From a virus, in IMG/VR virus record IMGVR_UViG_3300031963_000003, positions 169,564 to 233,563 of that record: a stretch of 64,000 nt of DNA; one strand, 5' to 3'. A model generated the notes under the pieces. It did not search any database and was not told where the DNA came from. It saw only the letters and a list, made by a program, of their open reading frames with translations. Every line of letters begins with the position of its first letter. The stretch's first letter is position 1. Of the stretch, positions 40,772 to 64,000 are shown piece after piece. The position numbers and the translations under genes are program-made.

Positions 40772-40804
40772 CTCATTTACTTTACATATAAATACCATTC
40801 CCCC

Positions 40805-40988
40805 GCCAAACTAAATCGACCTCCTCAGGTCCCTGAACTAACAAGTGTTAGTTAGTTTGTGCCAAACAAAATCGGTACCGTCGGACGATTCTGAGGATTC
40901 TGATTCCGCCAAACTAAATCGGTGGATTTATTGTTACAACATCAATTGTCTAAACAACCTTTCCGCCAAACTAAATTGACCATCTCAG
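40805..40988. repeat. Four direct copies of the GCCAAAC(T/A)AAAT(C/T)G element
   Basis: Copies at 40805-40818, 40861-40874, 40908-40921 and 40975-40988, spaced 47-67 bp, all in one orientation. Between the first two lies an imperfect inverted repeat built from CTAAC and GTTAG. No gene lies in this stretch. Confidence 0.85.
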
Positions 40989-41010
40989 GTCCCGTCGTCA
41001 GGATTCTCAT

Positions 41011-41047
41011 TAAAAAAAAAAATCCCGTGACGTTAATCACAGGATTT
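41011..41047 (-). terminator. Intrinsic terminator
   Basis: AAATCCCGTGA (41020-41030) pairs with TCACAGGATTT (41037-41047) with one mismatch; T run on the minus strand. Ends the basic protein gene. Confidence 0.85.
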
Positions 41048-41070
41048 GGTTAAGAGACTTGAGTCGTCTA

Positions 41071-41340
41071 TTACATATTACTCAAGATACTCTTACGGAA
41101 CTCGAAAGCTTTCTTCTTGGAGGAGAAGTTCTGAGAGTAACGGGTTCCGTTAACGCTAGCACGTACACGGTAAGAGAAACCATCATAGTAGATGTGGTGT
41201 GAAACAGGTACGTAAGTACTTACGGTTGTTTTCATAGCCGGAGCTGCTACTGCTTTCTTCCCACCCTTTTTGGGGGCTGGAGCTGGTTTCGCCGCTGGTT
41301 TGCTGGCGGGTTTTTTAGTTGTGGACTTCTTTGTTGCCAT
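41071..41340 (-). CDS. Histone-H1-like tail fused to AP2-like DNA-binding domain
   Basis: 89 aa. Residues 1-37 are almost only Lys, Ala, Pro and Thr, like an H1 tail. Residues 48-85 (YYDGFSYRVRASVNGTRYSQNFSSKKKAFEFRKS) resemble the three-strand-plus-helix AP2/arm-binding domain of phage integrases. A DNA-binding or DNA-packaging role is likely. It forms a single-gene cassette with its own terminator. Confidence 0.65.
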   Translation of the reverse strand: MATKKSTTKKPASKPAAKPAPAPKKGGKKAVAAPAMKTTVSTYVPVSHHIYYDGFSYRVRASVNGTRYSQNFSSKKKAFEFRKSILSNM

Positions 41341-41429
41341 AATATATTGATTTTGATATATAAAATATACACAAGAAAATCCTAAAAACCAAATCCTATA
41401 AAAAAATCTTTCAAAGAACTAATGCCAAA

Positions 41430-41750
41430 CTAAATCCACAGTATGATTCCCTCCTCAGGGTTATCAGGGTACCGTGACTCTTCTAAACATACACCACATG
41501 TGGATGGTAATAATTGCTGCTTACCTTTTATTCCATCTACCTGAAATTGCGATAGAGGTGCTGGTATACTGAATCCACATATGTGACACTCTAACCTATA
41601 TACGTTTAACTCACCCTTCCAATATAAATCAGTCAAGTTGAATTTCTTTCCCATCACTACGTTGTCATTAACGTCGGTAATGGTGTCTTCTATTATTTCA
41701 CCTGTGGTAGGGTCCGTGAAGTATACCTTGTCCCTGATGAAGAGTTTCAT
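41430..41750 (-). CDS. Zinc-ribbon protein
   Basis: 106 aa. CHIC (about residues 55-58) and CGVC (about 84-87) form a likely zinc ribbon. Starts within the end of the upstream small gene (4-nt overlap), last of a minus-strand operon beginning at 43303. Confidence 0.65.
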   Translation of the reverse strand: MKLFIRDKVYFTDPTTGEIIEDTITDVNDNVVMGKKFNLTDLYWKGELNVYRLECHICGFSIPAPLSQFQVDGIKGKQQLLPSTCGVCLEESRYPDNPEEGIILWI

Positions 41751-41905
41751 TTACTCTTCCCCCTTTCTTCCAAACGTTGCAAATATTGTGAAAACATCTT
41801 GGCCGCCATTGCTAACCTTTGAGGTTTAAAACAATATTTCTTATTAAGTCTAGCCATTGCTATCCTCATGAACTGTTCCTGAATCCGTGGTTCTACTACT
41901 ATCAT
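41747..41905 (-). CDS. Small basic helical protein
   Basis: 52 aa, basic, helical, Met/Arg/Lys-rich (QFMRIAMARLNKKYCFKPQRLAMAAKM). The 4-nt overlap with the next gene and fit in a 170-nt gap support it. Function unknown. Confidence 0.58.
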   Translation of the reverse strand: MIVVEPRIQEQFMRIAMARLNKKYCFKPQRLAMAAKMFSQYLQRLEERGKSK

Positions 41906-41919
41906 GACTTTAAATATTG

Positions 41920-42381
41920 CTACAGGTGAGTATTGAATACATCAAAATCCCTAATTCCCATATTTTGTCTCTCCACTCTTGCGTTGTGCTGTAAAAACGC
42001 TTGAATACCTTCACCGTGTGGTACGGCTTGAAATATTAGTTGCTGTTTAAATTGCTCTGAAGTAATAACTCGAACAACAGACAGTCCAAGTAATCTCATC
42101 CAAAATGGTTCGTCGACCATTACAGATTTAATCCTGAAATAGTTCACAGATTCTCGAGTCACACTGAAGACCCCTTTTCGTTCAATTACACAGTCATCAT
42201 AGAATTCATACCTCCAACAATCTACTTCGAAATATTTGTAGATATAGATGACTACCGCCAATGCACATGCATATGGGTGTACGAAGTAAGTTGCTGGTAC
42301 CATGGCCAGCCAACCAATATTCAACCACTGAGATGGGGTGAATATGTGAATCGGTTCTTGAGGTTTCTGTGTATTGAACAT
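41920..42381 (-). CDS. bPH-domain membrane protein
   Basis: 153 aa. Two membrane segments (about residues 18-48) are followed by the WRYEFYDDCVIERKGVFSVTRESVNYFRIKSVMV...LLGLSVVRVIT pattern of bacterial PH-like (DUF304/YdbS) domains. These membrane proteins are of unclear function. Sits 4 nt from the lipoprotein gene. Confidence 0.75.
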   Translation of the reverse strand: MFNTQKPQEPIHIFTPSQWLNIGWLAMVPATYFVHPYACALAVVIYIYKYFEVDCWRYEFYDDCVIERKGVFSVTRESVNYFRIKSVMVDEPFWMRLLGLSVVRVITSEQFKQQLIFQAVPHGEGIQAFLQHNARVERQNMGIRDFDVFNTHL

Positions 42382-42385
42382 AATA

Positions 42386-42676
42386 CTAAGTTTTTGTTAC
42401 AGTTTTATTTGCGGTTGTTCCTGCTGGTGAACATCCACATGGTGATGCTTTTCTACACATATTCATAAATGTCAGTGTATCCACTAAGTATACCTTCATG
42501 GTATCACCATATGAACCTTTATCCCATTGGGGTTTAATTACTTCTCGGGTTATGTTGCAATCGATAAAGTAAACTTTGTGTCCACTTACTAATGCCTTGT
42601 CCCCGTGTTGGATATATGTTCGATTGGTTCCACAACCAACTAATCCAAGTGCTGATATAAATAATATTTTTTTCAT
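42386..42676 (-). CDS. Small lipoprotein
   Basis: 96 aa. Signal sequence with lipobox LVGC (Cys15); mature part Thr/Cys-rich with a C-terminal CGCSPAG. Co-transcribed with the bPH protein, so a joint envelope role is plausible. Confidence 0.68.
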   Translation of the reverse strand: MKKILFISALGLVGCGTNRTYIQHGDKALVSGHKVYFIDCNITREVIKPQWDKGSYGDTMKVYLVDTLTFMNMCRKASPCGCSPAGTTANKTVTKT

Positions 42677-42700
42677 AACTCCAAATCTAAATAAAATTTA

Positions 42701-43303
42701 TTACTTCTCAATATGGATATCACGAAAAAATTCAAAATCAATTACTTCGTCTTCCTCCACCGCGAAGTCAACACACATTGCAATAATCTTTCCTCTTTTC
42801 TTTGCAACATATAATGTGTAAGAACCATCACCAAAACCAGATGAAGAAACTACTCCCTCGTCATACACACCGTATCGACTATCACCCAAGGTACGAGAAC
42901 ACATACTGATGTACCATTTTTCACCTTGTTCTTCCTCACGGGCCTCGGTCATTTCTTTCCAAGGTGTTACACCAAAGAATGAAATGTCACCATCTCCCAA
43001 ACCGATTCGTTCTGTAATAGAGTCGTCACGGTAAGATTCTTTGGAGAAGATTCCACACTGACCTGAGTCGACACCGATGGTTGCAGGATAATCTTTCCAA
43101 ACCAGTTTGTCGTCTTTATGGTCCTCGTGTATGACAAGTATCATTGAACTTCGGATACCCCAATCACCACAGTCGTGACGCTTAACATAGGTGTCATACA
43201 TACCGGGTTTAACACCACTAACAATTCCCTGACACCAGGTTGGGATTGTGTAACAAGGGTCGGATACTACGACCTCAGTTCCTAATTTGATTTTGTTTGT
43301 CAT
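42701..43303 (-). CDS. DUF4241-like protein
   Basis: 200 aa. VVVSDPCYTIPTWCQGIV, ATIGVDSGQCGIF, and VVSSSGFGDGSYTLYVAKKRGKIIAMCVDF match the DUF4241 layout (unknown function). ATG 43303 is preferred over one 60 nt upstream because the promoter (43333-43364) lies between. It heads an operon through to the zinc-ribbon gene at 41430. Confidence 0.78.
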   Translation of the reverse strand: MTNKIKLGTEVVVSDPCYTIPTWCQGIVSGVKPGMYDTYVKRHDCGDWGIRSSMILVIHEDHKDDKLVWKDYPATIGVDSGQCGIFSKESYRDDSITERIGLGDGDISFFGVTPWKEMTEAREEEQGEKWYISMCSRTLGDSRYGVYDEGVVSSSGFGDGSYTLYVAKKRGKIIAMCVDFAVEEDEVIDFEFFRDIHIEK

Positions 43304-43332
43304 ACACCTATTGATTTTTAATGTTCTATATT

Positions 43333-43364
43333 CAAAATTAATACATTTACTAGAATATTCCAAA
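43333..43364 (-). promoter_or_regulatory. Minus-strand promoter
   Basis: -7-like TAATTTTG at 43333-43340 and -33 TTTGG at 43360-43364, followed upstream by a GCCAATCTAAAT element at 43382-43393. Confidence 0.65.
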
Positions 43365-43394
43365 TTTTTCTAGAATATTTTTGCCAATCTAAAT

Positions 43395-43694
43395 TCAGTA
43401 CATCTCCTCCTTCAGTTGCTTTGCTTTCTCAAAGTGTTTCTTGATTTGGTTTGCAAAACTCACCAAACGAGCTTTGGTCTTTGCGTATGCGTAGAACTGA
43501 CAATACTCACTGTCAAAATCGATTCCACTACAATTGATGTTTCTCTTGACACAGTCCTCGAAGTCATAGGCAGAGTCGTAGTCGTGACCAATTGCTTCTT
43601 TTTTAGGGAAACCAGTAAGTGTCCACTGTGCTCCATCCCAATCACCTTTGTAAATTGAGAGTCCAATACCTGTTGAAATTGTTTCTGTTTTCAT
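43395..43694 (-). CDS. Hypothetical protein
   Basis: 99 aa with GDWDGAQWTLTGFPKKEAIGHDYDSAYDFEDCV and a C-terminal helix. ATG 43694 is used, 4 nt after the upstream gene's stop. Last gene of the operon starting at 45065. Confidence 0.62.
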   Translation of the reverse strand: MKTETISTGIGLSIYKGDWDGAQWTLTGFPKKEAIGHDYDSAYDFEDCVKRNINCSGIDFDSEYCQFYAYAKTKARLVSFANQIKKHFEKAKQLKEEMY

Positions 43695-43698
43695 ACCT

Positions 43699-44178
43699 CT
43701 ACTTTTTAAATGTTGATTTGAATACTCGGATGTTTTCCTCAATCTCGAGGTCCATAGCCTGAGCTAACTTCATCTTGGCTTTGGTCATGAACTCCTTGTC
43801 GCCAGACAAAATCTCCAAATCCTCCTCAGGGTGAAACTCAATCTTGTCGACAATAACACGGACATCTTTTGACTTCTTATCCTTACGGTAGAAAGGAGTC
43901 CTTGCGTAGATGTACTCACGAACTTGAGTCAACTTGATATCACTGAGGTCCTCACGAATTCTCATTTGGATTATAATCTCCTCGAGTGATGCTAGTTTTT
44001 CGAATGTTAATTTACTCTCAGTGATTAAGTTCTTATATAAACCAGTGAGCTCTTTAAGCTCCTTAGAATATTTCTTACCATCACCGTGGTTGATGAATTG
44101 GTCATATGAACTCAGTTCACTCTTTGACCCTACGATGTCAATGAAGACACCCTCGATTGTTTTATTTACTCGTCCCAT
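43699..44178 (-). CDS. Hypothetical protein
   Basis: 159 aa, charged and helical, begins MGRVNKTIEGVFIDIVGSKSELSSYDQFINHGDGKK. No family recognised. Confidence 0.65.
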   Translation of the reverse strand: MGRVNKTIEGVFIDIVGSKSELSSYDQFINHGDGKKYSKELKELTGLYKNLITESKLTFEKLASLEEIIIQMRIREDLSDIKLTQVREYIYARTPFYRKDKKSKDVRVIVDKIEFHPEEDLEILSGDKEFMTKAKMKLAQAMDLEIEENIRVFKSTFKK

Positions 44179-44183
44179 AATCT

Positions 44184-44444
44184 TTAAAAGAAGTTTAATA
44201 CAGATTTTAACATGCCAAACAAAATTCGGGGTTCGGCTGTCCCGTCGGAAAATTTTACTTCAGAGTTTTCCATTTCTCTTTTCATTTGAATTGCTTCATC
44301 AACTTTAATCCGTTGCTCGATGGTTCTTGCGTGGTATTTGGATGAAACAATGACATTCTCTTGAGTTCTCAATGCGTCTACCCATTCTTGGTAGGTTAAT
44401 TCTTCTTGAGGTTCTGCTGTCGATAATATTTTCAAATCTTCCAT
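44184..44444 (-). CDS. Small helical protein
   Basis: 86 aa, with LTYQEWVDALRTQENVIVSSKYHARTIEQRIK. Its final codons (ILFGMLK) are formed by a GCCAAACAAAAT element at 44214-44225, so the repeat is part of the coding sequence here. Confidence 0.62.
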   Translation of the reverse strand: MEDLKILSTAEPQEELTYQEWVDALRTQENVIVSSKYHARTIEQRIKVDEAIQMKREMENSEVKFSDGTAEPRILFGMLKSVLNFF

Positions 44445-44450
44445 ATGAAT

Positions 44451-45698: not shown

Positions 45699-46001
45699 TT
45701 ATTGATTTAAGATGTTAAACAATTTTGTACCAAGACCAAATAACTTTTCGGCCTTATCTTCTCTTTTTCCTTCACTACACACGTAGATTGACTTATCAGG
45801 TAGAACACCCAAATCCAACATTCCAAATGTGTGTTCCCATTTACCATTGATGAATTGTTCACCTGTAAACCTTTCTTGTGCGTTGTACGCTTCGTAGGTC
45901 ATTTTCAATTTGACATTATTCTCATTTTGAATAATTCTCATCTCATATGACTTATCTCTCAAGTGAGATGATACCGAGTGGATTACTTTTTCTTTTTTCA
46001 T
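45699..46001 (-). CDS. Hypothetical protein
   Basis: 100 aa, mixed beta/alpha. ATG 46001 lies 4 nt after the -7 box of its promoter; a longer frame from an upstream TTG would run through that promoter and is rejected. Confidence 0.62.
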   Translation of the reverse strand: MKKEKVIHSVSSHLRDKSYEMRIIQNENNVKLKMTYEAYNAQERFTGEQFINGKWEHTFGMLDLGVLPDKSIYVCSEGKREDKAEKLFGLGTKLFNILNQ

Positions 46002-46005
46002 AATA

Positions 46006-46037
46006 CAAAGATATAACAATTTTTCTTTTATACCAAA
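46006..46037 (-). promoter_or_regulatory. Minus-strand promoter, copy A of a 60-bp repeat
   Basis: -7 TATATCTTTG at 46006-46015, -33 TTTGG at 46033-46037, then GCCAAACTAAAT upstream (46053-46064). Nearly identical copies lie at 46394 and 47151. Confidence 0.87.
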
Positions 46038-46061
46038 TTTATTTTCAACTTTGTTGCCAAA

Positions 46062-46373
46062 CTAAATGTCCTCGACGGTAAAGTCATCCGACTCAAGGAT
46101 GTCTATGATGTGTGCGAGTTCATATATGTCCAATTCAACTAACGAGAGTTCTATACTATCACCAAAACTTTCCGACATCACAGTACCATCAGGTAATATT
46201 CCATACGCCGCGTATTGAACTCTACCATCATCTTCGTACATACCTTCGGTAACCCAAACTCCAAACACATTTCTAAATGTGATTTGTTGGTTCTCACCAA
46301 TAATGGTCGAACATTTGTTTTTAATTTTTTTGATTATTTCCTCTTGTAGGTCTTGAATTTTTTTCTTGTACAT
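46062..46373 (-). CDS. Hypothetical protein
   Basis: 103 aa. Lys-rich N-terminal helix, then NVFGVWVTEGMYEDDGRVQYAAYGILPDGTV. Its stop codon overlaps the GCCAAACTAAAT element of the next promoter. No family recognised. Confidence 0.62.
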   Translation of the reverse strand: MYKKKIQDLQEEIIKKIKNKCSTIIGENQQITFRNVFGVWVTEGMYEDDGRVQYAAYGILPDGTVMSESFGDSIELSLVELDIYELAHIIDILESDDFTVEDI

Positions 46374-46393
46374 AATAAAATGTTTTAGTAATA

Positions 46394-46425
46394 CAAAGAT
46401 ATAACAATTTTTCTTTTATACCAAA
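46394..46425 (-). promoter_or_regulatory. Minus-strand promoter, copy B
   Basis: Same sequence as copy A from -7 (46394-46403) through -33 (46421-46425) and on to GCCAACCTAAAT. Confidence 0.87.
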
Positions 46426-46495
46426 TTTATTTTCAACTTTGTTGCCAACCTAAATCAATGTCCATCCCATAATATATGTGTACGAGGTTTTTAAT

Positions 46496-47127: not shown

Positions 47128-47150
47128 ACTTTTTTAATTTAATTGTATTA

Positions 47151-47182
47151 CAAAGATATAACAATTTTTCTTTTATACCAAA
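47151..47182 (-). promoter_or_regulatory. Minus-strand promoter, copy C
   Basis: -7 TATATCTTTG at 47151-47160, -33 TTTGG at 47178-47182, GCCAAACTAAAT upstream. Matches copies A and B almost completely. Confidence 0.87.
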
Positions 47183-47206
47183 TTTTTTTTCAACTTTGTC
47201 GCCAAA

Positions 47207-47683
47207 CTAAATCCCCCCTGTGAATATGGGGTTTGGTCTGAACTCCAATTTGTACTTTGGGTTGTAACTACCACCCGAACAATTGCTACATGAATAAGAC
47301 CTACTTCTTAAACGATGGGCTTTGGATACCTTACCACAACCAACACATGTTGCAATATATTTTGCTTCGGGTGTTTCAACTACTTTACTACTATAACAAC
47401 GATGTCCATCACAACCTATTTCAATCGCTTTCGACCTCCATACATGGTTATGTTTTTGACCAGGACAAAGTGCGTGTGCAATCTCATGTAGAATAGTATT
47501 CTTTACATGACTTTCATCATTAAGTAATGTCAATACTTTGGATAGTGTAATTTGTTTAGGTCTGTATTTACAACACCCAAACCTACTTTTTGCATTGTCA
47601 TACGCAAATGTCCACCCCTTAACATCTAACTTGTGTTTGTGAATTAACTTCTCTGCTAACCGTTGTGCTTTAATTAAGTCCAT
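47207..47683 (-). CDS. SprT-like zinc metalloprotease domain protein
   Basis: 158 aa. HEIAH (residues 66-70) with a third His in GQKHNHVW gives the SprT active site; a C-terminal zinc ribbon (C113/C116, C132/C135) completes the family layout. SprT/SPRTN relatives cleave proteins trapped on DNA; whether this member does is unknown. Its stop touches the upstream element of the next promoter. Confidence 0.85.
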   Translation of the reverse strand: MDLIKAQRLAEKLIHKHKLDVKGWTFAYDNAKSRFGCCKYRPKQITLSKVLTLLNDESHVKNTILHEIAHALCPGQKHNHVWRSKAIEIGCDGHRCYSSKVVETPEAKYIATCVGCGKVSKAHRLRSRSYSCSNCSGGSYNPKYKLEFRPNPIFTGGI

Positions 47684-48094: not shown

Positions 48095-48112
48095 CTTGAT
48101 TGGTTTATAATA

Positions 48113-48144
48113 CAAATATAATACTAATTCTTTTATATTCCAAA
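48113..48144 (-). promoter_or_regulatory. Minus-strand promoter
   Basis: -7 TATATTTG at 48113-48120 and -33 TTTGG at 48140-48144, GCCAAACAAAAAT at 48154-48166. Confidence 0.87.
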
Positions 48145-48160
48145 TGTTTTTTTGCCAAAC

Positions 48161-48183
48161 AAAAATCCCCCTGTGACGGGGGA
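48161..48183 (-). terminator. Intrinsic terminator
   Basis: TCCCCC/GGGGGA stem with a 6-nt loop and T run on the minus strand, overlapping the GCCAAAC element of the next promoter. Confidence 0.82.
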
Positions 48184-48791: not shown

Positions 48792-48811
48792 TGTTATGTT
48801 GTTTTATGATA

Positions 48812-48843
48812 CAAATATAATACTGTTATTATTATATTCCAAA
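48812..48843 (-). promoter_or_regulatory. Minus-strand promoter
   Basis: -7 TATATTTG at 48812-48819, -33 TTTGG at 48839-48843, GCCAACCAAG element upstream (48873-48882). Confidence 0.85.
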
Positions 48844-48954
48844 TAATTTTTTATCTTTTTTATTGTTTTCTTGCCAACCAAGTTTTTGGATTAACCAGGG
48901 TCACCAGCAAAATGACCAGTAAAACTGGCTGTTGCAACCAGTCTGAAGCCAGGT

Positions 48955-49016
48955 GATTTTGGTTGGCACAACTTAAAGTGTTGATTTTATTAGGATTACA
49001 GAATGCCAAACAAAAT
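48955..49016. repeat. Inverted element pair, unit 1
   Basis: GATTTTGGTTGGC (48955-48967) faces GCCAAACAAAAT (49005-49016). The space between contains TTGATTTTATT, shared with units 3 and 4. Confidence 0.85.
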
Positions 49017-49054
49017 TCCGATGACCAGCATCATGCGCGCAACATCTTCAAGCA

Positions 49055-49889: not shown

Positions 49890-49940
49890 TTTATTTTTAT
49901 TTTTTTTCTTCAGGAGGGACCTGTTCTTCCCAGGGCGATA

Positions 49941-49963
49941 TTGTTTGGCGGGCGCCAAACTAA
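49941..49963. repeat. Inverted element pair, unit 2 (collapsed form)
   Basis: TTGTTTGGCG (49941-49950) directly faces CGCCAAACTAA (49953-49963), a near-perfect palindrome with a 2-nt centre. Confidence 0.85.
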
Positions 49964-50007
49964 TTTAATAGACGAACTGTGCAGCTCCTCCGCACACATT
50001 CGAGCAA

Positions 50008-50695: not shown

Positions 50696-51451
50696 TTAGA
50701 AACGAAGGTTCAACTTGTCCTCATTACGACGCTTGTAGTTGTAAATGTCTTCAATCATTTCCGCGTATGATTTTTTATCACCACACATATAGATTGAACT
50801 TGGACGAAGTTTTACTTTATGTAAAAATTCTTCAAACTTAAAATCGGGTTTCTTTTCCATAATGGTAAGAATAGTACGAACAAATACCGATTTGTTGTAA
50901 CCCTTTTCAAAGTAAGGTTTCAGTTGGAGTAGGTTATTCGCCCATTCTTTGGCGGTTTCCATATTACCAACAACAAACTTACCATCCGCAAAATCTTGTT
51001 TGTCACAATGACGAGTACCAGAATTTTGTAGTAACATAATTCTTTCGGTCAAAGAAAACATCGGAAACTCTTTTGAAAAATCTTCCAAAGTTTTGTAAGA
51101 TTTGTTTCCTTGTTCGGAAAAACCATGAATGTAATCTTTCTTACCCCACTCTTTCATGTTCTGGTTGAACTTACGTGCGGCTTCAAAGATACCTTTCGTG
51201 GTGTTGGGGATTGAGTTGTCTACAATAAAGTAGATACCTTTACCCGCTTCTTTTGCTGCGGTTAGTCGGTGTTGTCCGTCTACAACCACATACTGGGAGT
51301 TTACAATGATTGGAACGAGTTTTAATCCGTCCTTCTTCATCGAGTCTGTAATACGCTTAACGCGTGGAGAGTCTACCTCACGATTTACATTGTGAAGTTT
51401 GAACATACCCAAATTTTGGGTGAACTTTACTTGAACATTTTTTGTACTCAT
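50696..51451 (-). CDS. ParB-like nuclease-domain protein
   Basis: 251 aa. The ParB/Srx core is clear: SPRVKRITDSMKKDGLKLVPIIV followed by VVVDGQHRLTAAKEAG (DGQHR at residues 58-62). The C-terminal 150 residues are not the usual ParB helix-turn-helix and are unrecognised. Such phage proteins may bind DNA or act as nucleases or CTPases. Single-gene cassette. Confidence 0.82.
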   Translation of the reverse strand: MSTKNVQVKFTQNLGMFKLHNVNREVDSPRVKRITDSMKKDGLKLVPIIVNSQYVVVDGQHRLTAAKEAGKGIYFIVDNSIPNTTKGIFEAARKFNQNMKEWGKKDYIHGFSEQGNKSYKTLEDFSKEFPMFSLTERIMLLQNSGTRHCDKQDFADGKFVVGNMETAKEWANNLLQLKPYFEKGYNKSVFVRTILTIMEKKPDFKFEEFLHKVKLRPSSIYMCGDKKSYAEMIEDIYNYKRRNEDKLNLRF

Positions 51452-52679: not shown

Positions 52680-52898
52680 TTAACGATAAAGAGTTACATA
52701 GTCACCGAAATACTTTTCAATCACGCCAATCAAATTCTCATAATCCCCACTCATCATCTCCTCTTGAATTTTCTTGGAGTCCAAACCGAGTTGTTTCGCC
52801 CATTTTGAGGCGAGACCAATAAGAACGAACGCGTTCCCATCAGGTCCTGTGAGGTCAATCTCAATACCTCCTTGTTTTTCATCAATAGATTTTATCAT
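52680..52898 (-). CDS. Small hypothetical protein
   Basis: 72 aa with IDLTGPDGNAFVLIGLASKWAKQLGLDSKKIQEEM; resembles small phage proteins whose function is unknown. First gene of the operon. Confidence 0.68.
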   Translation of the reverse strand: MIKSIDEKQGGIEIDLTGPDGNAFVLIGLASKWAKQLGLDSKKIQEEMMSGDYENLIGVIEKYFGDYVTLYR

Positions 52899-52918
52899 TG
52901 TCTTGTCGTTTTATAATA

Positions 52919-52950
52919 CAAATATAAATCAGTAATTAATATAATCCAAA
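52919..52950 (-). promoter_or_regulatory. Minus-strand promoter
   Basis: -7 TATATTTG at 52919-52926, -33 TTTGG at 52946-52950, GCCAATCTAATTT upstream (52970-52982). Confidence 0.87.
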
Positions 52951-53014
52951 TATTTTTTTATTTTTCTTGCCAATCTAATTTCCGTCCTGAACCGTGACTC
53001 AGAGTCCTGAGAAA

Positions 53015-53037
53015 TAAAAAAACCCCTTTCGGGGTTT
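53015..53037 (-). terminator. Intrinsic terminator
   Basis: AAACCCC/GGGGTTT perfect stem, TTTC loop, minus-strand T run. Confidence 0.92.
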
Positions 53038-53040
53038 CTC

Positions 53041-53448
53041 TTACGAGGTGTACTTGTTATAGAACACTTCCATTCGTTCCATTACCACATCTAAACTCCA
53101 ACCACTTGTGTCTTGGTCGTTCCAATGAAAGTAACCCATTTGAAATTTCTCAACACAATTAGGTATTGATTTATCGTGTACGAACTCGGGGCAACCACCA
53201 TCAACAAAATCATCTTGGTAGTTACCACGATACTCAATTACGATATCCTTACCATTGAACTTTTTGGTGTAAGTTACTTTTTGAGTATACTTTTTGGTTT
53301 GAACTTTACCCTTTCGTGTCCAACCATGTTCGGACATAAAAACATCCATTTGTTGGTTAACACTTTCTTTTATCTTAGAAAGTTCATTCTCTTTTTCCTC
53401 TTTTTGTTTTTTCAAGAAGGAATAATAATCTTTAATTGTCGTGTACAT
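53041..53448 (-). CDS. Hypothetical protein
   Basis: 135 aa. Coiled-coil N-terminus (KKQKEEKENELSKIKESVNQQ) followed by a beta domain. Single-gene cassette. No family recognised. Confidence 0.65.
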   Translation of the reverse strand: MYTTIKDYYSFLKKQKEEKENELSKIKESVNQQMDVFMSEHGWTRKGKVQTKKYTQKVTYTKKFNGKDIVIEYRGNYQDDFVDGGCPEFVHDKSIPNCVEKFQMGYFHWNDQDTSGWSLDVVMERMEVFYNKYTS

Positions 53449-53469
53449 ATGTTTATTAATTTAACACCA

Positions 53470-53501
53470 CAAATATAAAAGTATATAGAATATAATCCAA
53501 T
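53470..53501 (-). promoter_or_regulatory. Minus-strand promoter
   Basis: -7 TATATTTG at 53470-53477 and ATTGG in place of TTTGG at 53497-53501. Confidence 0.78.
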
Positions 53502-53622
53502 AATTTTTTTATTTTTTTTGCCAAACAATTTGGTGGATTCCAGGTCCCCGCAGCAGGAAACCAGTAAAACCAGAAGCAATGACTAGAAAAAACCAGTTGT
53601 GCAACAGCAGCAACCAGCCCTT

Positions 53623-53684
53623 GATTTTGGTTGGCGAACCCAAACCATTGATTTTATTGGGTTTACAGAATGCCAAACAAAATC
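53623..53684. repeat. Inverted element pair, unit 3
   Basis: GATTTTGGTTGGC (53623-53635) faces GCCAAACAAAATC (53672-53684), 11 of 13 pairs match. Inside, AACCCAA and TTGGGTT form a second nested stem around TTGATTTTA. Confidence 0.88.
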
Positions 53685-55812: not shown

Positions 55813-55832
55813 TTTTAGATTGTTTTATGGTA

Positions 55833-55864
55833 CAAATATAAATCTATTTTTTGTATAAGTGAAT
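55833..55864 (-). promoter_or_regulatory. Minus-strand promoter, weak -33
   Basis: -7 TATATTTG at 55833-55840; the -33 region lacks TTTGG. A GCCAAACAAAAAT element follows at 55883-55895. Confidence 0.7.
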
Positions 55865-55888
55865 TTTTTTTTTATTTTTTTCGCCAAA

Positions 55889-55913
55889 CAAAAATCACCC
55901 GTGAAGGTGATTT
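55889..55913 (-). terminator. Intrinsic terminator
   Basis: AAATCACC/GGTGATTT stem overlapping the upstream element of the neighbouring promoter; short T run on the minus strand. Confidence 0.75.
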
Positions 55914-55915
55914 CG

Positions 55916-56137
55916 TCATTCGTTTCGTACAATATCTAATAGGTCATTCACAATTTCTTTTTTGGTTAATGAAAGAAGTTGATTACCTCTGAACGACAAC
56001 AACTTAAAGGTATTCATTCCTTTAATACCTTTTTCACCCTCTACATAGTAATCCATTTTCCACTTACCCAAATACTTAACATTCCCTATGTGTTTTACAT
56101 AGTAGACATTACCGATAGTTAGTTTTTCTAAAACCAT
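55916..56137 (-). CDS. Small hypothetical protein
   Basis: 73 aa, beta-rich (KLTIGNVYYVKHIGNVKYLGKWKMDYYVEGEKGIKGMNTF), SH3-like in appearance. ATG 56137 chosen because the longer frame enters the promoter. Single-gene cassette. Confidence 0.65.
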   Translation of the reverse strand: MVLEKLTIGNVYYVKHIGNVKYLGKWKMDYYVEGEKGIKGMNTFKLLSFRGNQLLSLTKKEIVNDLLDIVRNE

Positions 56138-56155
56138 ATAAATTAATTTAGAACA

Positions 56156-56187
56156 CAAATATAAATCTATATTTTGTATAATCCAAA
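56156..56187 (-). promoter_or_regulatory. Minus-strand promoter
   Basis: -7 TATATTTG at 56156-56163 and -33 TTTGG at 56183-56187, GCCAAACAAAAG upstream. Confidence 0.87.
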
Positions 56188-56259
56188 TTTATTTTTATAT
56201 TTCTTGCCAAACAAAAGTTATCCTGTGCTGCATCATCACCATCTTGGATACTTATTATT

Positions 56260-56417: not shown

Positions 56418-56481
56418 GATTTTGGTTGGCTCGAACCCAAAGTATTGATTTTATTGGGTTTAGAGTTTGCCAAACAATTTT
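56418..56481. repeat. Inverted element pair, unit 4
   Basis: GATTTTGGTTGGC (56418-56430) faces GCCAAACAATTTT (56469-56481); nested AACCCAA/TTGGGTT around ATTGATTTTA as in unit 3. Confidence 0.85.
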
Positions 56482-57481: not shown

Positions 57482-57531
57482 TAAATCTTTATTTTTTTTT
57501 TCTGACCCCAGAATTCACCGTACCATCTCAG

Positions 57532-57571
57532 AAATTGGTTGGCATCTGTCATACACCCGCCAAACTAAATT
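57532..57571. repeat. Inverted element pair, unit 5
   Basis: AAATTGGTTGGC (57532-57543) faces GCCAAACTAAATT (57559-57571) with a 15-nt centre containing TGTCATAC. Confidence 0.83.
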
Positions 57572-58530: not shown

Positions 58531-58551
58531 ATCTGTATTAGTTTATTAATA

Positions 58552-58582
58552 CAAATATACAACTTATTTTATGATATCCAAA
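58552..58582 (-). promoter_or_regulatory. Minus-strand promoter
   Basis: -7 TATATTTG at 58552-58559 and -33 TTTGG (in TTTGGATATC) at 58578-58582; GCCAATCAAATTG upstream. Confidence 0.87.
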
Positions 58583-58605
58583 TTTTTTTTAGGATATTTT
58601 GCCAA

Positions 58606-58911
58606 TCAAATTGATGTCAATCTGAATATTCGTTTGAACTCTTTTTCAATTCTTCTGAATCTTATTTCGTCTTTTTCTCTAACATAACGCGATATTGTTT
58701 TGTTAAATTGAAAGTTAGAACGAGTAAGAAGATAGATAAATTTTCTCCTCTCCACTTTGTGACCTTCAAAGTTGTATGCCCATTCAACATCAACCGAAAT
58801 ATAATTTTCAGTTTCAATGATGTCACACACTTTACCTTCTTTTTCCGATTTTTTTAGGTAGTTCATTACTTCCTCATCGGTATTCAATGATATGTCGTTA
58901 TAGTTTTTCAT
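58606..58911 (-). CDS. Hypothetical protein
   Basis: 101 aa, charged, with an Arg/Lys/Phe-rich C-terminus (DEIRFRRIEKEFKRIFRL). Start at 58911 lies 4 nt after the -7 box. No family recognised; its stop overlaps the neighbouring element. Confidence 0.62.
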   Translation of the reverse strand: MKNYNDISLNTDEEVMNYLKKSEKEGKVCDIIETENYISVDVEWAYNFEGHKVERRKFIYLLTRSNFQFNKTISRYVREKDEIRFRRIEKEFKRIFRLTSI

Positions 58912-58997: not shown

Positions 58998-59061
58998 AAA
59001 ATTTTGGTTGGCTGACCACATAAAACACTTAAATATAATAGGTTATCCGCCAAACAAAATC
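58998..59061. repeat. Inverted element pair, unit 6
   Basis: AAATTTTGGTTGGC (58998-59012 region) faces CGCCAAACAAAATC (59048-59061). Confidence 0.83.
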
Positions 59062-59887: not shown

Positions 59888-59907
59888 AGTAATTATGTAT
59901 TACGATA

Positions 59908-59939: not shown

Positions 59940-59969
59940 TTTTTTTTCATACCTGTCGTCTCCATCCCA

Positions 59970-60070
59970 CAAATTGTTTGGCGTGTTGTTTAATGTTTTG
60001 ACCGAAAGATTAAACAAAACATATAGTGTAATACGCCTTTATTGAGTGTCATACAGTGCCAACCAAATTT
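59970..60070. repeat. Inverted element pair, unit 7
   Basis: AAATTGTTTGGCG (59971-59983) faces GCCAACCAAATTT (60058-60070). The 74-nt centre holds GTGTAATACG and GTGTCATACA. Confidence 0.82.
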
Positions 60071-60075
60071 AGGAT

Positions 60076-60089
60076 ACAGCACGTGCTGT
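60076..60089. repeat. Perfect 14-bp palindrome
   Basis: ACAGCACGTGCTGT in a gene-free spacer, just beyond a terminator; possible operator. Confidence 0.7.
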
Positions 60090-60109
60090 GAGGTGAAACT
60101 AAAACGCAA

Positions 60110-60140
60110 CAAAAAAGGGTAACATTTCTGCTACCCTTTT
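60110..60140 (-). terminator. Intrinsic terminator
   Basis: AAAAGGGTA/TACCCTTTT perfect 9-bp stem (60113-60121, 60132-60140) with minus-strand T run. Confidence 0.88.
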
Positions 60141-60163
60141 CCACCGCAACCGAGTTAAACCAA

Positions 60164-60712
60164 TTAAATCGACAAGTACAGGCGGTTGTGGTTGTATAGT
60201 GCGACTGGGTTTTCTTCCGCAATCTTACCATATTCCTTTTTAATGATTTCGTACATTCTATCTTGTGGTTCGTTAATACACTCCGATAAAAGTTCACAAA
60301 AACCATAGTTACTTTCATCAACTACTTCTTGTTCGGTACCAGGTAAACCACAATAGTACGCTTCCCCTACTTCGGAAATAAACATTCCCGAATAAAAACC
60401 TTTCAACTTAAAGTGATTAACGAATTTGTCCGCGTTACACCAAATAAAAATTGAATTGTCTTTTTCTTTTAATAGGTACACCATACTTTCATCAATGATG
60501 AAACCATTTGAACCAGGAAATTGTCCAACCGAGAACAATCCCATAGGTGCTCCGTGTCCACACATTATTACTCTGTCGTGGGCGTCGATAAGTTTTCTAA
60601 CTTCTTCTTTTGTTACCCCACCCGTGATAATTGTCTTATTCGGTATAGGTTCGTACACAATATCTAAAAATTGTGTCGATTTGTCTTTTGGATGAATTAC
60701 AAGTGTTTTCAT
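60164..60712 (-). CDS. Conserved hypothetical protein (MKTLVIHPKD type)
   Basis: 182 aa. MKTLVIHPKDKSTQFLDIVYEPI, TIITGGVTKEEVRKLIDAHDRVIMCGHGAPMGLFSVGQFP and FIWCNADKFV...GFYSGMFISEVGEA are conserved blocks I recall from Bacteroidota and phage proteins without function. The CGHG and WCNAD segments look like an enzyme active site. Start 60712 is set by the promoter at 60734-60765. Confidence 0.75.
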   Translation of the reverse strand: MKTLVIHPKDKSTQFLDIVYEPIPNKTIITGGVTKEEVRKLIDAHDRVIMCGHGAPMGLFSVGQFPGSNGFIIDESMVYLLKEKDNSIFIWCNADKFVNHFKLKGFYSGMFISEVGEAYYCGLPGTEQEVVDESNYGFCELLSECINEPQDRMYEIIKKEYGKIAEENPVALYNHNRLYLSI

Positions 60713-60733
60713 TATTTTGTCGATTTTATGATA

Positions 60734-60765
60734 CAAAGATATAACGAGTTTTTTATTCTACCAAA
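60734..60765 (-). promoter_or_regulatory. Minus-strand promoter
   Basis: -7 TATATCTTTG at 60734-60743 and -33 TTTGG at 60761-60765. Confidence 0.87.
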
Positions 60766-60841
60766 TTTATTTTTATTTTTCTTGCCAACTAACCAAATAG
60801 TAACTTACCATTCGGTAACATCTCAGAACCGCTGCGTCGGG

Positions 60842-60916
60842 AAAATTTTGGTTGGCGTTCTTACAATCTGTAAAGTAAAAACCTACTAATCTGTAAAGTG
60901 GATGCCAAACAATTTT
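60842..60916. repeat. Inverted element pair, unit 8
   Basis: AAAATTTTGGTTGGCG (60842-60857) faces GCCAAACAATTTT (60904-60916). The centre has two direct copies of AATCTGTAAAGT. Confidence 0.87.
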
Positions 60917-60945
60917 CACCCTGAACCGTGACTCAGGACTTCAGG

Positions 60946-60976
60946 TCATAAAAAAACCCCAACTTTCGTTGAGGTC
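60946..60976 (-). terminator. Intrinsic terminator
   Basis: ACCCCAAC and GTTGAGGT stem, TTTC loop, minus-strand T run. Confidence 0.88.
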
Positions 60977-60982
60977 TTGTCT

Positions 60983-61195
60983 TTACTCTTCTTCACTATC
61001 CCGAAAAATTTGAATCGCTTCGTTGAACAATTCATTCTGTAATTGAAATAGTGTATATCCACTCTTAATACATTCATCTACCCAATCATTATCACCTTCA
61101 AAAATTCCTTCCCAACTTCTATTCGGTGGTAAACCCATTTCGTTTTCGGTTTGAATATGTTGGTAAATTAAACCAACAACTTCTTGTCTTGTCAT
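60983..61195 (-). CDS. Small acidic protein
   Basis: 70 aa, helical, with GLPPNRSWEGIFEGDNDWVDECIKSGYTLFQLQNEL. Start 61195 avoids the promoter at 61218. No family recognised. Confidence 0.65.
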   Translation of the reverse strand: MTRQEVVGLIYQHIQTENEMGLPPNRSWEGIFEGDNDWVDECIKSGYTLFQLQNELFNEAIQIFRDSEEE

Positions 61196-61217
61196 TTTAA
61201 TTAGTTTTGGTGAAACA

Positions 61218-61249
61218 CAAAGATAAAACATTTTTTCGTATAATCCAAA
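61218..61249 (-). promoter_or_regulatory. Minus-strand promoter
   Basis: -7 TATCTTTG at 61218-61225 and -33 TTTGG at 61245-61249. Confidence 0.82.
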
Positions 61250-61314
61250 TTTTTTTATATCTTTCTTGCCAACCAATTTTCACCCTGAACCGTGACTCAA
61301 GTTCTTCAGGTCAT

Positions 61315-61342
61315 AAAAAAACCCCCACCTTTCGGTGAGGGT
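61315..61342 (-). terminator. Intrinsic terminator
   Basis: AACCCCCACC/GGTGAGGGTT stem with TTTC loop, minus-strand T run. Confidence 0.92.
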
Positions 61343-61348
61343 TCGTTG

Positions 61349-61651
61349 TTAAAAAACTTCGGGTTCAAACTCAATTTGTGGGATACCCAATAGTTCGTAA
61401 TCATCAAATTCCCCCCAATCGGGTTCATTGAAATAACGAAAACGGACATCCATAGTTCCATCTTCGTTCCACCAAATACGGACTTGGGTTCGGTGGTCGG
61501 AAATAAAAAACCCTTCAAGTTGTTCCAACTTCTCAATTAGAGGTTGAACATCCGAATCGTCAATAGTTACTTCTTCGTTATTAACGAGGAAATCATCAAC
61601 ACATTCACAATTACCATCGTAGTCGATAGAGAAATCAATGTACTTTTCCAT
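61349..61651 (-). CDS. Acidic hypothetical protein
   Basis: 100 aa, acidic, with VRIWWNEDGTMDVRFRYFNEPDWGEFDDYELLGIPQIEF. No family recognised; single-gene cassette. Confidence 0.66.
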   Translation of the reverse strand: MEKYIDFSIDYDGNCECVDDFLVNNEEVTIDDSDVQPLIEKLEQLEGFFISDHRTQVRIWWNEDGTMDVRFRYFNEPDWGEFDDYELLGIPQIEFEPEVF

Positions 61652-61683
61652 TTTGTTTTTTTTGTTTTATTGGTTTAACAATA

Positions 61684-61715
61684 CAAATATAAATCAAATT
61701 TTAATATACACAACA
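61684..61715 (-). promoter_or_regulatory. Minus-strand promoter, weak -33
   Basis: -7 TATATTTG at 61684-61691; -33 is degenerate (GTTGT). GCCAAACTACC upstream at 61743-61753. Confidence 0.72.
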
Positions 61716-61786
61716 TTTGAGTATATTTTTTTTTATCTATTTTGCCAAACTACCACGAAACAGATGACCACCTGTCGTCAAATCCG

Positions 61787-61850
61787 AAAAATTGTTTGGC
61801 GTAGGTGTAATACAATGTATGATAGTGTCATACAACGCCAACCAAAATTC
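61787..61850. repeat. Inverted element pair, unit 9
   Basis: AAAATTGTTTGGCG (to 61801) faces CGCCAACCAAAATT (61836-61849). Centre includes GTGTAATACA and GTGTCATACA. Confidence 0.87.
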
Positions 61851-61890
61851 CGAGCTGCAACTGTGCAGCTCCACTGCACACATCCGAGCA

Positions 61891-61921
61891 AAAAAAATCC
61901 CCGACTTTCGCCGAGGACTTT
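61891..61921 (-). terminator. Probable intrinsic terminator
   Basis: Same imperfect hairpin as at 59094 with a minus-strand T run. Confidence 0.8.
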
Positions 61922-61940
61922 CCACCTAACTAAACCAAAC

Positions 61941-62315
61941 CTAATATGAACCAAACCTTTCTTTTAACGCCACGTCAAACGCGGACATAAATGTTACTTG
62001 TTCTTTGACTTCTTCAAGTGAAAGTTTGGTATCACCATTTTCACCCGTTTCATCATCGTAACCCATTATCAACCCATTACCCGATAGAGGTTGTCGGTAA
62101 TTTTTCAACTTGAAAAACTTTGTGTTTTCATCAACACTCATTATACCTTCTTCATCAACATACACATCGTTTTCGTTGTTGTAACTAACAATCTCAAAAA
62201 TAGAACACTTTAAGTGTCCATAGATACTTGGTAACTGACTACCAGTTTCATCACGAACAACTTCAACTTCGGAAATTGTTTTGTTTTCTACGTCGATTAA
62301 AATTCCTCTTGACAT
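61941..62315 (-). CDS. Acidic hypothetical protein
   Basis: 124 aa, beta-rich, acidic: MSRGILIDVENKTISEVEV then SGNGLIMGYDDETGE. A pattern common in small phage proteins; function unknown. Single-gene cassette. Confidence 0.68.
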   Translation of the reverse strand: MSRGILIDVENKTISEVEVVRDETGSQLPSIYGHLKCSIFEIVSYNNENDVYVDEEGIMSVDENTKFFKLKNYRQPLSGNGLIMGYDDETGENGDTKLSLEEVKEQVTFMSAFDVALKERFGSY

Positions 62316-62344
62316 TTCTTTTTTGTTTTATTGGTTTAACGATA

Positions 62345-62376
62345 CAAATATAATACTATTTCTTTTATATTCCAAA
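62345..62376 (-). promoter_or_regulatory. Minus-strand promoter
   Basis: -7 TATATTTG at 62345-62352 and -33 TTTGG at 62372-62376, GCCAATCAAATT at 62387-62398. Confidence 0.87.
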
Positions 62377-62410
62377 TCTTTTTTTGCCAATCAAATTCCA
62401 ACATCTCCCG

Positions 62411-62626
62411 TCAGGAGGTCAGGTATTTCTTGTCTTTGACAAATTTGAGGTGTCTACATTCCTCAATAGTCAATCCCACAAATTCGTTGGGAGTGAAACT
62501 GATTTCATCGGGATAGTAGTCGAACAAAAATTCTTCTTGTCCATTTTCCATTGTAACCCACACTTGGGGCATCGGGTCGAACAAACTCTTTGGTTGTTCC
62601 GTAATACGAGATGAGATAACTTTCAT
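62411..62626 (-). CDS. Conserved small phage protein
   Basis: 71 aa. MKVISSRITEQPKSLFDPMPQVWVTMENGQEEFLFDYYPDEISFTPNEFVGLTIEE is a block I recall from multiple phage proteins. Beta-rich, function unknown. Confidence 0.74.
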   Translation of the reverse strand: MKVISSRITEQPKSLFDPMPQVWVTMENGQEEFLFDYYPDEISFTPNEFVGLTIEECRHLKFVKDKKYLTS

Positions 62627-62651
62627 GATTTTGTCTATTGGTTTAACTATA

Positions 62652-62683
62652 CAAATATAAAACTATTTTTCTTATATACCAAA
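62652..62683 (-). promoter_or_regulatory. Minus-strand promoter
   Basis: -7 TATATTTG at 62652-62659 and -33 TTTGG at 62679-62683. No separate GCCAA element lies between it and repeat unit 10. Confidence 0.85.
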
Positions 62684-62720
62684 TTTATTTTTATTTTTCT
62701 CAGAACCGTCGTCCGTATCC

Positions 62721-62784
62721 AAAAATTGGTTGGCGTAGGTGTAATACGATACTCACTATTTGTCATACGGCGCCAAACAATTTT
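62721..62784. repeat. Inverted element pair, unit 10
   Basis: AAAAATTGGTTGGCG (62721-62735) faces CGCCAAACAATTTT (62771-62784). Centre contains GTGTAATACGAT and TGTCATACG. Confidence 0.88.
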
Positions 62785-62841
62785 CCTTCAGGGCCCTGAC
62801 TCAAGTCCTGAAATGTTCACCTTATCAATAAGGGAAACAAA

Positions 62842-62872
62842 TAAAAAACCCCCACCATTACTGATGAGGGTT
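62842..62872 (-). terminator. Intrinsic terminator
   Basis: AACCCCCA and TGAGGGTT stem with minus-strand T run, ending the 134-aa gene. Confidence 0.85.
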
Positions 62873-62894
62873 AGTCTGAACCAACAAACTAAAT

Positions 62895-63299
62895 TCAATT
62901 TAAACAAAGATTTTTCATAAGGTCGGAAACTTGGTAAGGTTTATAAAAATCAAAAACCTCTTGATGTTTTTCATCGGTTACAAAATTGTGGAACTCAACA
63001 TTCAAAACGCCCTTGTCAAAGGTTGTTTCAACACTACACAAAATTTCGTGTCCATCCCTTTCAATGATTTGTGGAACAACTCGGTCGTACACCATTCTAC
63101 CGATTGGGTCGTTTGGTACTGGTCCACCACCAACACCATACTCGGTTTCCCCTTCTTCGTTTACTTTTTTCAAAAGGTACATTTTTACATTGGGTACACT
63201 ATCGTTTGTTCCCAACATTTCTTCGGTACTCACTTTTGCGGAGTGTGTCATTCCTTGAATAAAATCTCTGATTTCTTCAATGTCTTTGTAATTGTTCAT
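62895..63299 (-). CDS. Hypothetical protein
   Basis: 134 aa; KMYLLKKVNEEGETEYGVGGGPVPNDPIGRMVYDRVVPQIIERDGHEI in the middle, then VETTFDKGVLNVEFHNF. No family recognised. Start at 63299 avoids the promoter. Confidence 0.67.
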   Translation of the reverse strand: MNNYKDIEEIRDFIQGMTHSAKVSTEEMLGTNDSVPNVKMYLLKKVNEEGETEYGVGGGPVPNDPIGRMVYDRVVPQIIERDGHEILCSVETTFDKGVLNVEFHNFVTDEKHQEVFDFYKPYQVSDLMKNLCLN

Positions 63300-63328
63300 A
63301 CTTGTTCTTTTTATTTGGTTTAACAATA

Positions 63329-63360
63329 CGAATATAATATGATTAAACGGATATTCCAAA
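63329..63360 (-). promoter_or_regulatory. Minus-strand promoter
   Basis: -7 TATATTCG at 63329-63336 and -33 TTTGG at 63356-63360. Confidence 0.8.
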
Positions 63361-63422
63361 TAAATTTATATTTTTTTTGCCAACTTACGATACAAGATGT
63401 CGAGGGACAGAAGACGGATTTT

Positions 63423-63484
63423 GATTTTTGGTTGGCGAGCGTAATACGATAATACCAATGTGTAATACCCCGCCAAACAATTTT
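63423..63484. repeat. Inverted element pair, unit 11
   Basis: GATTTTTGGTTGGCG (63423-63437) faces CGCCAAACAATTTT (63471-63484). Centre has GCGTAATACGAT and TGTAATACC. Confidence 0.87.
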
Positions 63485-63521
63485 CTACGCTGCTCAAATC
63501 CACCACAGAACCTCGTGTAAA

Positions 63522-63550
63522 TAAAAAACCCCCAACTTTCGTTGAGGGTT
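63522..63550 (-). terminator. Intrinsic terminator
   Basis: AACCCCCAAC/GTTGAGGGTT stem, TTTC loop, minus-strand T run. Confidence 0.92.
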
Positions 63551-63569
63551 AATTACCATTTTGGAATTT

Positions 63570-63776
63570 TTAGAACCTTTGAGGTTGTGGTTTCTTTTTA
63601 CTCTTGATGTAATTTTTGATGTCCTCAAACAAAATGATAAAGAACATACCAATACCCATACAAGAAAATAAGAACATACCCATTTGATTGTCTACGGGAA
63701 TATCCCAAGTTAATGATACCCACATTGAGTAAACAATGAACCCGATGATTGCGATGTAAGGAAATAACTTTTTCAT
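63570..63776 (-). CDS. Small two-helix membrane protein
   Basis: 68 aa with membrane segments at about residues 4-22 and 32-51 and a basic tail (NYIKSKKKPQPQRF). Holin-like size, but no further support. Single-gene cassette. Confidence 0.67.
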   Translation of the reverse strand: MKKLFPYIAIIGFIVYSMWVSLTWDIPVDNQMGMFLFSCMGIGMFFIILFEDIKNYIKSKKKPQPQRF

Positions 63777-63805
63777 AATTGTTTCTTTTGTTTGGTTTAA
63801 CGATA

Positions 63806-63837
63806 CAAATATAATATAAGTTTCAATATAAACAACA
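63806..63837 (-). promoter_or_regulatory. Minus-strand promoter, weak -33
   Basis: -7 TATATTTG at 63806-63813; -33 degenerate. A GCCAACTTG element lies upstream. Confidence 0.7.
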
Positions 63838-63874
63838 TTTTTTTATATCTATTTTGCCAACTTGATAACACCAA

Positions 63875-64000
63875 CAACTTCTCCTTCGAGCAACAGCGCA
63901 TGGTTGGAAATTAGATTGGCGGTTTTAGCAACACCTAAAGCATTTAGCAACTTCTCCTTCGAGCAATTGCGCATGAGGGAAATTAGATTGGCGGTTTTAG
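63875..64000. repeat. Direct repeat at the window edge
   Basis: Two copies of a 53-54 bp unit (63875-63928 and 63948-64000), differing at a few positions, period 73 bp. Each starts CAACTTCTCCTTCGAGCAA, has GCGCATG in the middle and ends ATTGGCGGTTTTAG. The second copy reaches the last base, so the array may continue outside the window. Confidence 0.85.

Follow-up and report, generated by a model that had tools for sequence, protein, structure and literature searches.

A promoter early stem-loop (PeSL) combines a sigma-70 promoter with a terminator hairpin. In T4-type phages, such early-promoter/terminator units are reported to act as mobile regulatory cassettes: they are repeated between the small nonessential genes of a hyperplastic region, and recombination between the units gains, loses and shuffles genes (Arbiol 2010; Comeau 2014, both cited in PMC4503421). 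Cluster K mycobacteriophages carry start-associated sequences (SAS) and extended start-associated sequences (ESAS); the SAS is an asymmetric 13-bp repeat (GGGATAGGAGCCC) lying at start codons and only in the non-structural half of the genome, and half of the copies have imperfect inverted repeats upstream, with a variable spacer and a consensus that differs by subcluster (PMC3203893). A third system, the stoperators, has been described in cluster A mycobacteriophages (PMC9283540, PMC6550527). Here, an array of short gene units marked by a repeated element was analysed in a 64,000-nucleotide window of viral DNA, which corresponds to bases 169564-233563 (the right end) of a 233,563-bp contig (233.6 kb) from a phage designated G000. 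In the orientation of the genes, the element reads (A/G)ATTT(T/A)G(T/G/A)TTGGC(A/G), also given as ATTTTGTTTGGC. We consider it probable that a single phage protein, most likely one of 89 amino acids (aa) encoded at one end of the array, binds this element, and that the array forms a single regulon laid over exchangeable gene cassettes.

The array resembles PeSLs and SAS/ESAS but is neither. As with PeSLs, genes have been gained and lost between relatives, with breakpoints in the promoter units (events E1 and E3-E6, described below), but the promoters are of the TTTG/TAnnTTTG type and not of the sigma-70 type; moreover, PeSLs are not known to have a separate phased operator, inverted pairs of it, or a linked gene for a small DNA-binding protein of co-varying specificity. 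The likeness to SAS/ESAS lies in the inverted repeats of variable spacer that accompany a subset of the single repeats (11 pairs in G000). However, SAS are located at start codons while the present element lies upstream of the promoter, the inverted repeats of cluster K are unlike SAS in sequence while here one element supplies both the single copies and the arms of the pairs, and SAS/ESAS have no known reader while a candidate can be proposed for this array. Stoperators share with it the use of many asymmetric, oriented sites, attributed to one phage protein, with a specificity that varies among relatives; they differ in having a repressor of known structure, in belonging to temperate phages, and in lacking promoter phasing, pairs and cassette modules. 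Integrons, with their attC sites, likewise line up single-gene units, most of them unknown, that are separated by a repeated inverted-repeat element, but here no integron-type integrase was found (PF00589 search), the cassettes bear their own promoters and exchange takes place over longer homology. No near match to the phage was present among 50,697 phage records. The statement in the original prediction, made from the sequence of the window, that no described system has this layout was too strong, PeSLs and SAS/ESAS being close.

Results

Distribution of the element

From ~40.4 kb of the window onwards nearly all genes are directed leftward and are organised in many short units with TTTG/TAnnTTTG promoters. 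Copies of the element were sought with a 16-nt weight matrix, (A/G)A(T/A)TT(T/A)G(T/G/A)TTGGC(A/G), at a cut-off of 11 bits; the matrix was refined inside the array region, as refinement without this restriction, with the complete genome as input, converged on a giant tandem-repeat gene. Between positions 40400 and 64000, 64 sites scored above 11 bits (49 on the minus strand and 15 on the plus strand), while 50 third-order Markov simulations of the region gave a mean of 3.9 and a maximum of 9. The left-hand 40.4 kb of the window contained three sites and the other parts of the genome ~8, some of them in the tandem-repeat gene, so that the remaining 210 kb of the contig together held ~11. The original prediction had reported a repeated element in the last 23 kb, with more than 35 copies counted by eye and none in the left 40 kb; the repeat turned out to be stronger than stated, and the scan was clearly unequal between the two halves of the window. 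The repetition of promoter-terminator units between small genes, also proposed there, was seen as well, promoters being present in nearly all gaps and terminators being visible in the sequence.

Although intergenic DNA makes up 25% of the region, 49 of the 64 sites were intergenic (p ~ 4e-18), and 28 of the 29 gaps of at least 60 bp contained at least one. Copies in gene direction accounted for 36 of the 49 intergenic and 12 of the 14 coding ones. Inside genes, 12 sense-strand copies were found where synonymous shuffling predicted 2.3; high-scoring intragenic copies lie at 40527, 42313, 43805, 44218, 45359, 52729 and 54101, among others. Two arrangements could be distinguished, which the earlier account had merged into one: single copies immediately before the -33 box, and 11 inverted pairs further upstream. 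In addition, direct copies cluster around one gene at 40.8-41.4 kb.

An asymmetric site of 12-13 bp, a strong bias of orientation with transcription and intragenic copies in excess of expectation are traits of stoperator-like, silencing sites, at which a phage repressor bound to many oriented copies would block transcription and keep the region shut until needed; that specificity classes differ among related phages (see below) also agrees with this idea. Even so, a roadblock does not need the phasing to the -33 and -7 boxes reported in the next section, inverted pairs are not a feature of stoperators, no integrase that would indicate a temperate life style was found (PF00589 search), and no repressor-type helix-turn-helix protein was identified. 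We regard a silencing function of this kind as unlikely.

Two other repeats were observed. A ~72-bp tandem repeat containing a copy of the element occupies positions 63876-64000 and continues in locus L114, with copy differences among near-identical genomes. To the left of the window (G000:C1:107307-123725), a single open reading frame (ORF) of 5,472 aa comprises about a thousand short repeats with the opposite reading of GGNGTNTTNGT; it probably encodes a repetitive virion or adhesin-like protein.

Single copies and promoters

For 21 promoters of G000, the distance between the first base of TTGGC and the TA in the -7 box was measured. It was 46-48 bp in 14 of them, 36-38 bp in five and 57-58 bp in two, with no promoter falling between these three classes, which are one helical turn apart. 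The spacing of 10-30 nt upstream of the -33 box originally proposed should thus be replaced by a quantised distance. Independent relatives followed the same rule (48-50 and 60 bp in G020; 38, 48 and 69 bp in G023). The single copy is centred near -60 and is separated from the -33 box by an A-rich stretch. Class I activators sit near -60/-61, and the site found here agrees with theirs in position: it lies upstream of the -35/-33 box, near -61, and keeps to one face of the helix.

All the modules composed of element and promoter are on the minus strand. In the module at 46001-46068, TTGGC lies 47 bp before TATCTTTG; the one at 46383-46456 has almost the same sequence. The 47-bp class further includes the modules at 47146-47213, 52896-52981, 53469-53532, 55832-55895, 56155-56218 and 61190-61280, while that at 58539-58613 is in the 46-bp class. 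The modules at 48096-48166 and 62321-62398 belong to the 38-bp class, one turn shorter, and the module at 48800-48885 to the 58-bp class, one turn longer. A single element at 43380-43395 (minus strand) stands 47 bp before a different variant of the -7 box, TAATTTTG.

A protein bound to the single copy near -60, always on the same side of the helix, would contact the host RNA polymerase and switch the unit on; less likely, it would hold the unit off. Of the two, activation is favoured, as the element keeps in phase with the promoter without overlapping it. Alternatively, the element could be just the upstream part of a duplicated promoter, used by the RNA polymerase of the host or by one of the host's factors, and no phage protein would be devoted to it. 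The modules are indeed alike by descent, the A-rich stretch between element and -33 box resembles an UP element, and the hosts, which for these uncultured phages are deduced solely from promoter type, appear to use TTTG/TAnnTTTG promoters. Against this, relatives combine different elements with the same promoter boxes, the element is also found as inverted pairs and in the neighbourhood of the 89-aa gene, and it is nearly missing at the other promoters of the genome; we therefore find this possibility very improbable.

Other sequences occupy comparable positions in some related phages. In locus L123 (from G006), promoters have TTAACA-N5-TTTTAACAAGATAAATTTGG in place of the single element, with two TTAACA boxes one turn apart. 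In L140, from a TCTGGA-type phage, TTATCCACA / TGTGGATAA, which are perfect DnaA boxes, lie directly upstream of promoters near positions 1590 and 2060.

A candidate reader of the element

The gene surrounded by direct copies (41071-41340, minus strand) is at the far end of the array and specifies a basic protein of 89 aa. It is predicted to consist of a Lys/Ala/Pro-rich tail and a C-terminal beta-beta-beta-alpha domain (strands 46-52, 57-63 and 66-72, helix 75-87), with C-terminal values of 80-92 in the predicted local distance difference test (pLDDT); the same order was predicted for a 62-aa homologue. Downstream of the gene there are four direct copies of the element within 40802-40977 (40802-40817, 40858-40873, 40905-40920 and 40962-40977, minus strand), a layout that recurs in relatives L294-L300, and upstream there is one more direct copy, a matrix site at 41421-41436 (minus strand). 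Through these copies the protein might control its own gene. Homologues were present in every tested relative that had a GNTTGGC element and a complete locus, and in eight of nine loci the homologous genes were flanked by direct copies, one to four on each side, with no inverted copies. The gene was absent from fourteen related records examined in which no such element was recognised. No homologue was detected among the isolated phages or bacterial genomes searched.

The beta-beta-beta-alpha order is known from AP2 and integrase arm-binding domains. The predicted order of secondary structure elements in the 89-aa protein fits that fold; profile searches and Foldseek gave no significant sequence or fold match to it, for which reason the protein can be assigned to this fold class only as a prediction. 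A ParB-like protein (50696-51451) had been the first candidate reader, but was dropped since it has relatives in element-free phages and no cluster of copies at its gene. This ParB/DGQHR-like protein is kept in the arrays of many relatives.

The original prediction had offered a regulon read by one phage factor as one of two explanations of the array, the other being an array built by gain and loss of cassettes at the element. The helical phasing and a candidate reader gene flanked by copies speak for the regulon, which is also the most economical account of the array.

Specificity classes among related phages

Arrays of the same build were found with other elements, namely TAGTCTGGA in G016, TTACTGGGG in G018 and G019, and TTAGTGGGGCA in G017, which has 24 pairs. 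In G018 and G019, the homologue of the 89-aa gene has two copies of the element proper to these phages (TACTGGGG) directly upstream. Three further homologues were found in phages of unassigned element, G024/G025 and G038. The repeats beside these genes, read by eye, were ATTTTC(T/C)GTGGCA in G024/G025 and ATTATGACTGGC in G038; the exact patterns were fixed after viewing the gene flanks and before the arrays were counted. The counts obtained afterwards were four copies of ATTTTCTGTGGCA in the G024/G025 array, against 0.01 expected, and seven of TGAC(T/C)GGC in that of G038, against 0.14. Some of these copies were paired or stood beside promoters. Thus, the copies flanking the homologous gene predicted the element used across the array.

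Inverted pairs

Eleven gaps of G000 hold two copies facing each other, with inner lengths of 4 to 75 bp. When 71 pairs from eleven phages were pooled, the inner lengths showed a preference for a period of 10.5 bp (R = 0.53; p about 2.5e-4, including the period scan). Considered phage by phage, G000, G006, G016 and G017 support this period, while several others have too few pairs. Phasing of the pairs relative to the promoter was sought by eye and was not seen. The space between the arms holds GTATTACAC/GTATGACA or else, for three of the G000 pairs, a stretch that appears to be of integration host factor (IHF) type, seemingly fitting the consensus WATCAANNNNTTR. The three are the pairs at 48955-49017 (inner length 37 bp), 53623-53684 (36 bp) and 56418-56481 (38 bp). 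Inner lengths of 15 bp with GTATGACA, 75 bp with GTATGACAC/GTATTACAC, 36 bp with GTATGACAC/GTATTACAC and 37 bp with GTATGACA/GTATTACAC were found at 57531-57571, 59970-60070, 61788-61849 and 62722-62784, respectively; the pair at 60844-60916 has 47 bp with TTTACAGATT repeats, and those at 49937-49966, 59000-59061 and 63424-63484 have 4, 36 and 35 bp. The protein that reads the single copies may also bridge the arms of these upstream pairs, with the GTATTACA-type or IHF-type sequence lying between the arms.

The arms are complementary and remain so when the element changes between phages, which could suggest that the pairs form hairpins in RNA or single-stranded DNA, as terminators or regulatory RNAs do. 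Yet the pairs are placed between terminator and promoter, single copies are equally common, the spacers (4 to 77 nt), when pooled, follow the helical repeat, and an Rfam search produced no matching family, i.e. no indication of an RNA function. Hairpin formation is, in our view, extremely improbable. In a different relative (L236), which has no homologue of the 89-aa gene, about nine palindromes of the form AGGTGTAC-tcaa/ttga-GTACACCT were observed between genes.

Three pairs differ between relatives. The inner part of the pair at 48955-49017 is inverted in G003 and that of the pair at 60844-60916 in contig 3300021961_000226 (locus L213, here called X). In G002, a genome otherwise identical to G000, the pair at 63424-63484 has lost its left arm together with the inner part through a 68-bp deletion.

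Gain, loss and relocation of cassettes

While G001 and G002 are nearly identical to G000, G003 (about 90% identical) is devoid of five single-gene units that G000 has, and X (about 78% identical) is devoid of four stretches of G000, three of which are units also missing in G003. All the units concerned are on the minus strand. Cassettes E1 (a 103-aa gene, 46062-46382), E4 (an 80-aa gene, 55883-56154), E5 (a 106-aa ORF, 58606-58898) and E6 (60975-61267) are absent from both G003 and X and, for this reason, were probably gained in the G000 lineage. In contrast, E3 (a 135-aa gene, 52974-53468) is absent from G003 and present in X, so it was probably lost in G003. In every case the flanking sequences have 50-78 bp of element and promoter in common, and alignment located the crossover inside the module (for E6, in terminator, spacer and element); the breakpoints of E3, E4, E5 and E6 fall in the modules at 52896-52981, 55832-55895, 58539-58613 and 61190-61280, respectively.

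Farther relatives showed a shuffled order. Genes shared with G006 (45-93% protein identity) are rearranged and have new genes between them, and in L171/L172 the homologue of E6 has the E3 homologue on one side and that of the 52680 gene on the other, a location remote from the one that E6 occupies in G000. A recent transfer, considered on account of a 96% match of E3 in L172, was dismissed, the match being short and at a contig edge. Separately, near position 12682 of L179, a phage of the TACTGGGG type carries GTTTGGC-type copies beside its own element, as if a foreign cassette had been acquired.

These changes could be due to a phage recombinase that targets the element, chiefly the inverted pair, and moves cassettes much as attC sites are used in integrons. 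Cassettes are in fact gained, lost and relocated at elements, and the two inverted inner parts and the deletion of an arm with its inner part in an otherwise identical genome are compatible with such an activity. However, no match to the tyrosine recombinase family PF00589 was obtained in G000, G001, G003 or G006, all controls being positive and other recombinase classes not being searched. The lost cassettes are bounded by single elements together with 50-78 bp of common promoter, sufficient for general recombination; template switching can invert a spacer between close inverted repeats; and the helical phasing suggests that the working form is duplex DNA and not a folded single strand. Site-specific recombination at the element is accordingly held to be quite unlikely. 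Since the shared modules provide homology and no further enzyme is needed, ordinary recombination at repeats is enough for cassette exchange. General recombination between the common element-promoter modules of 50-80 bp would add, remove and move one-gene cassettes. The part of the original prediction that envisaged an array assembled by gain and loss therefore stands, in that single units come, go and relocate with junctions inside the module, while exchange at the 12-bp element itself is not required. The cassette-array and regulon explanations are not mutually exclusive, and both partly hold.

Discussion

Several observations weigh against a regulon activated by the 89-aa protein. The 21 distances are not independent draws because the promoter modules are related by descent, being copies of one another, and the argument from phasing consequently rests on the shifts being whole turns. 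Activation at promoters leaves the sense-strand copies inside genes unexplained, and a stoperator-like role explains their excess better. The phasing of pairs is not significant in G018 and is weak in several single phages. The family of the 89-aa protein matches no described family, its best hit being a weak one to dsrm (E 0.017), and Foldseek returns no significant match for its fold. Finally, no homologue is encoded on the 168-kb contig of G017, in spite of its 24 pairs; a different protein may serve as reader in that phage, or the contig may be incomplete.

In large phages, most of the unknown genes related to host takeover and defence are located in accessory regions, and little is known of how genes acquired one at a time come to be switched on jointly. 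In the array described here, one short tag would account for both aspects, placing each new unit under shared control and providing the repeat used for the exchange of units. Six specificity classes supply protein-element pairs with which the co-change of a tiny DNA-binding protein and its site can be tested, and the direct repeats around the 89-aa gene are a simple search handle for accessory arrays in uncultured phages. A more speculative idea, which we rate as rather doubtful, is that the element works as a private address system, in which the linked protein defines an element class of its own for each lineage, and only cassettes that bear the resident class are expressed and retained. If this were true, a single 12-bp code would govern both regulation and the range of gene exchange, and switches of class would act as barriers in the manner of immunity groups.

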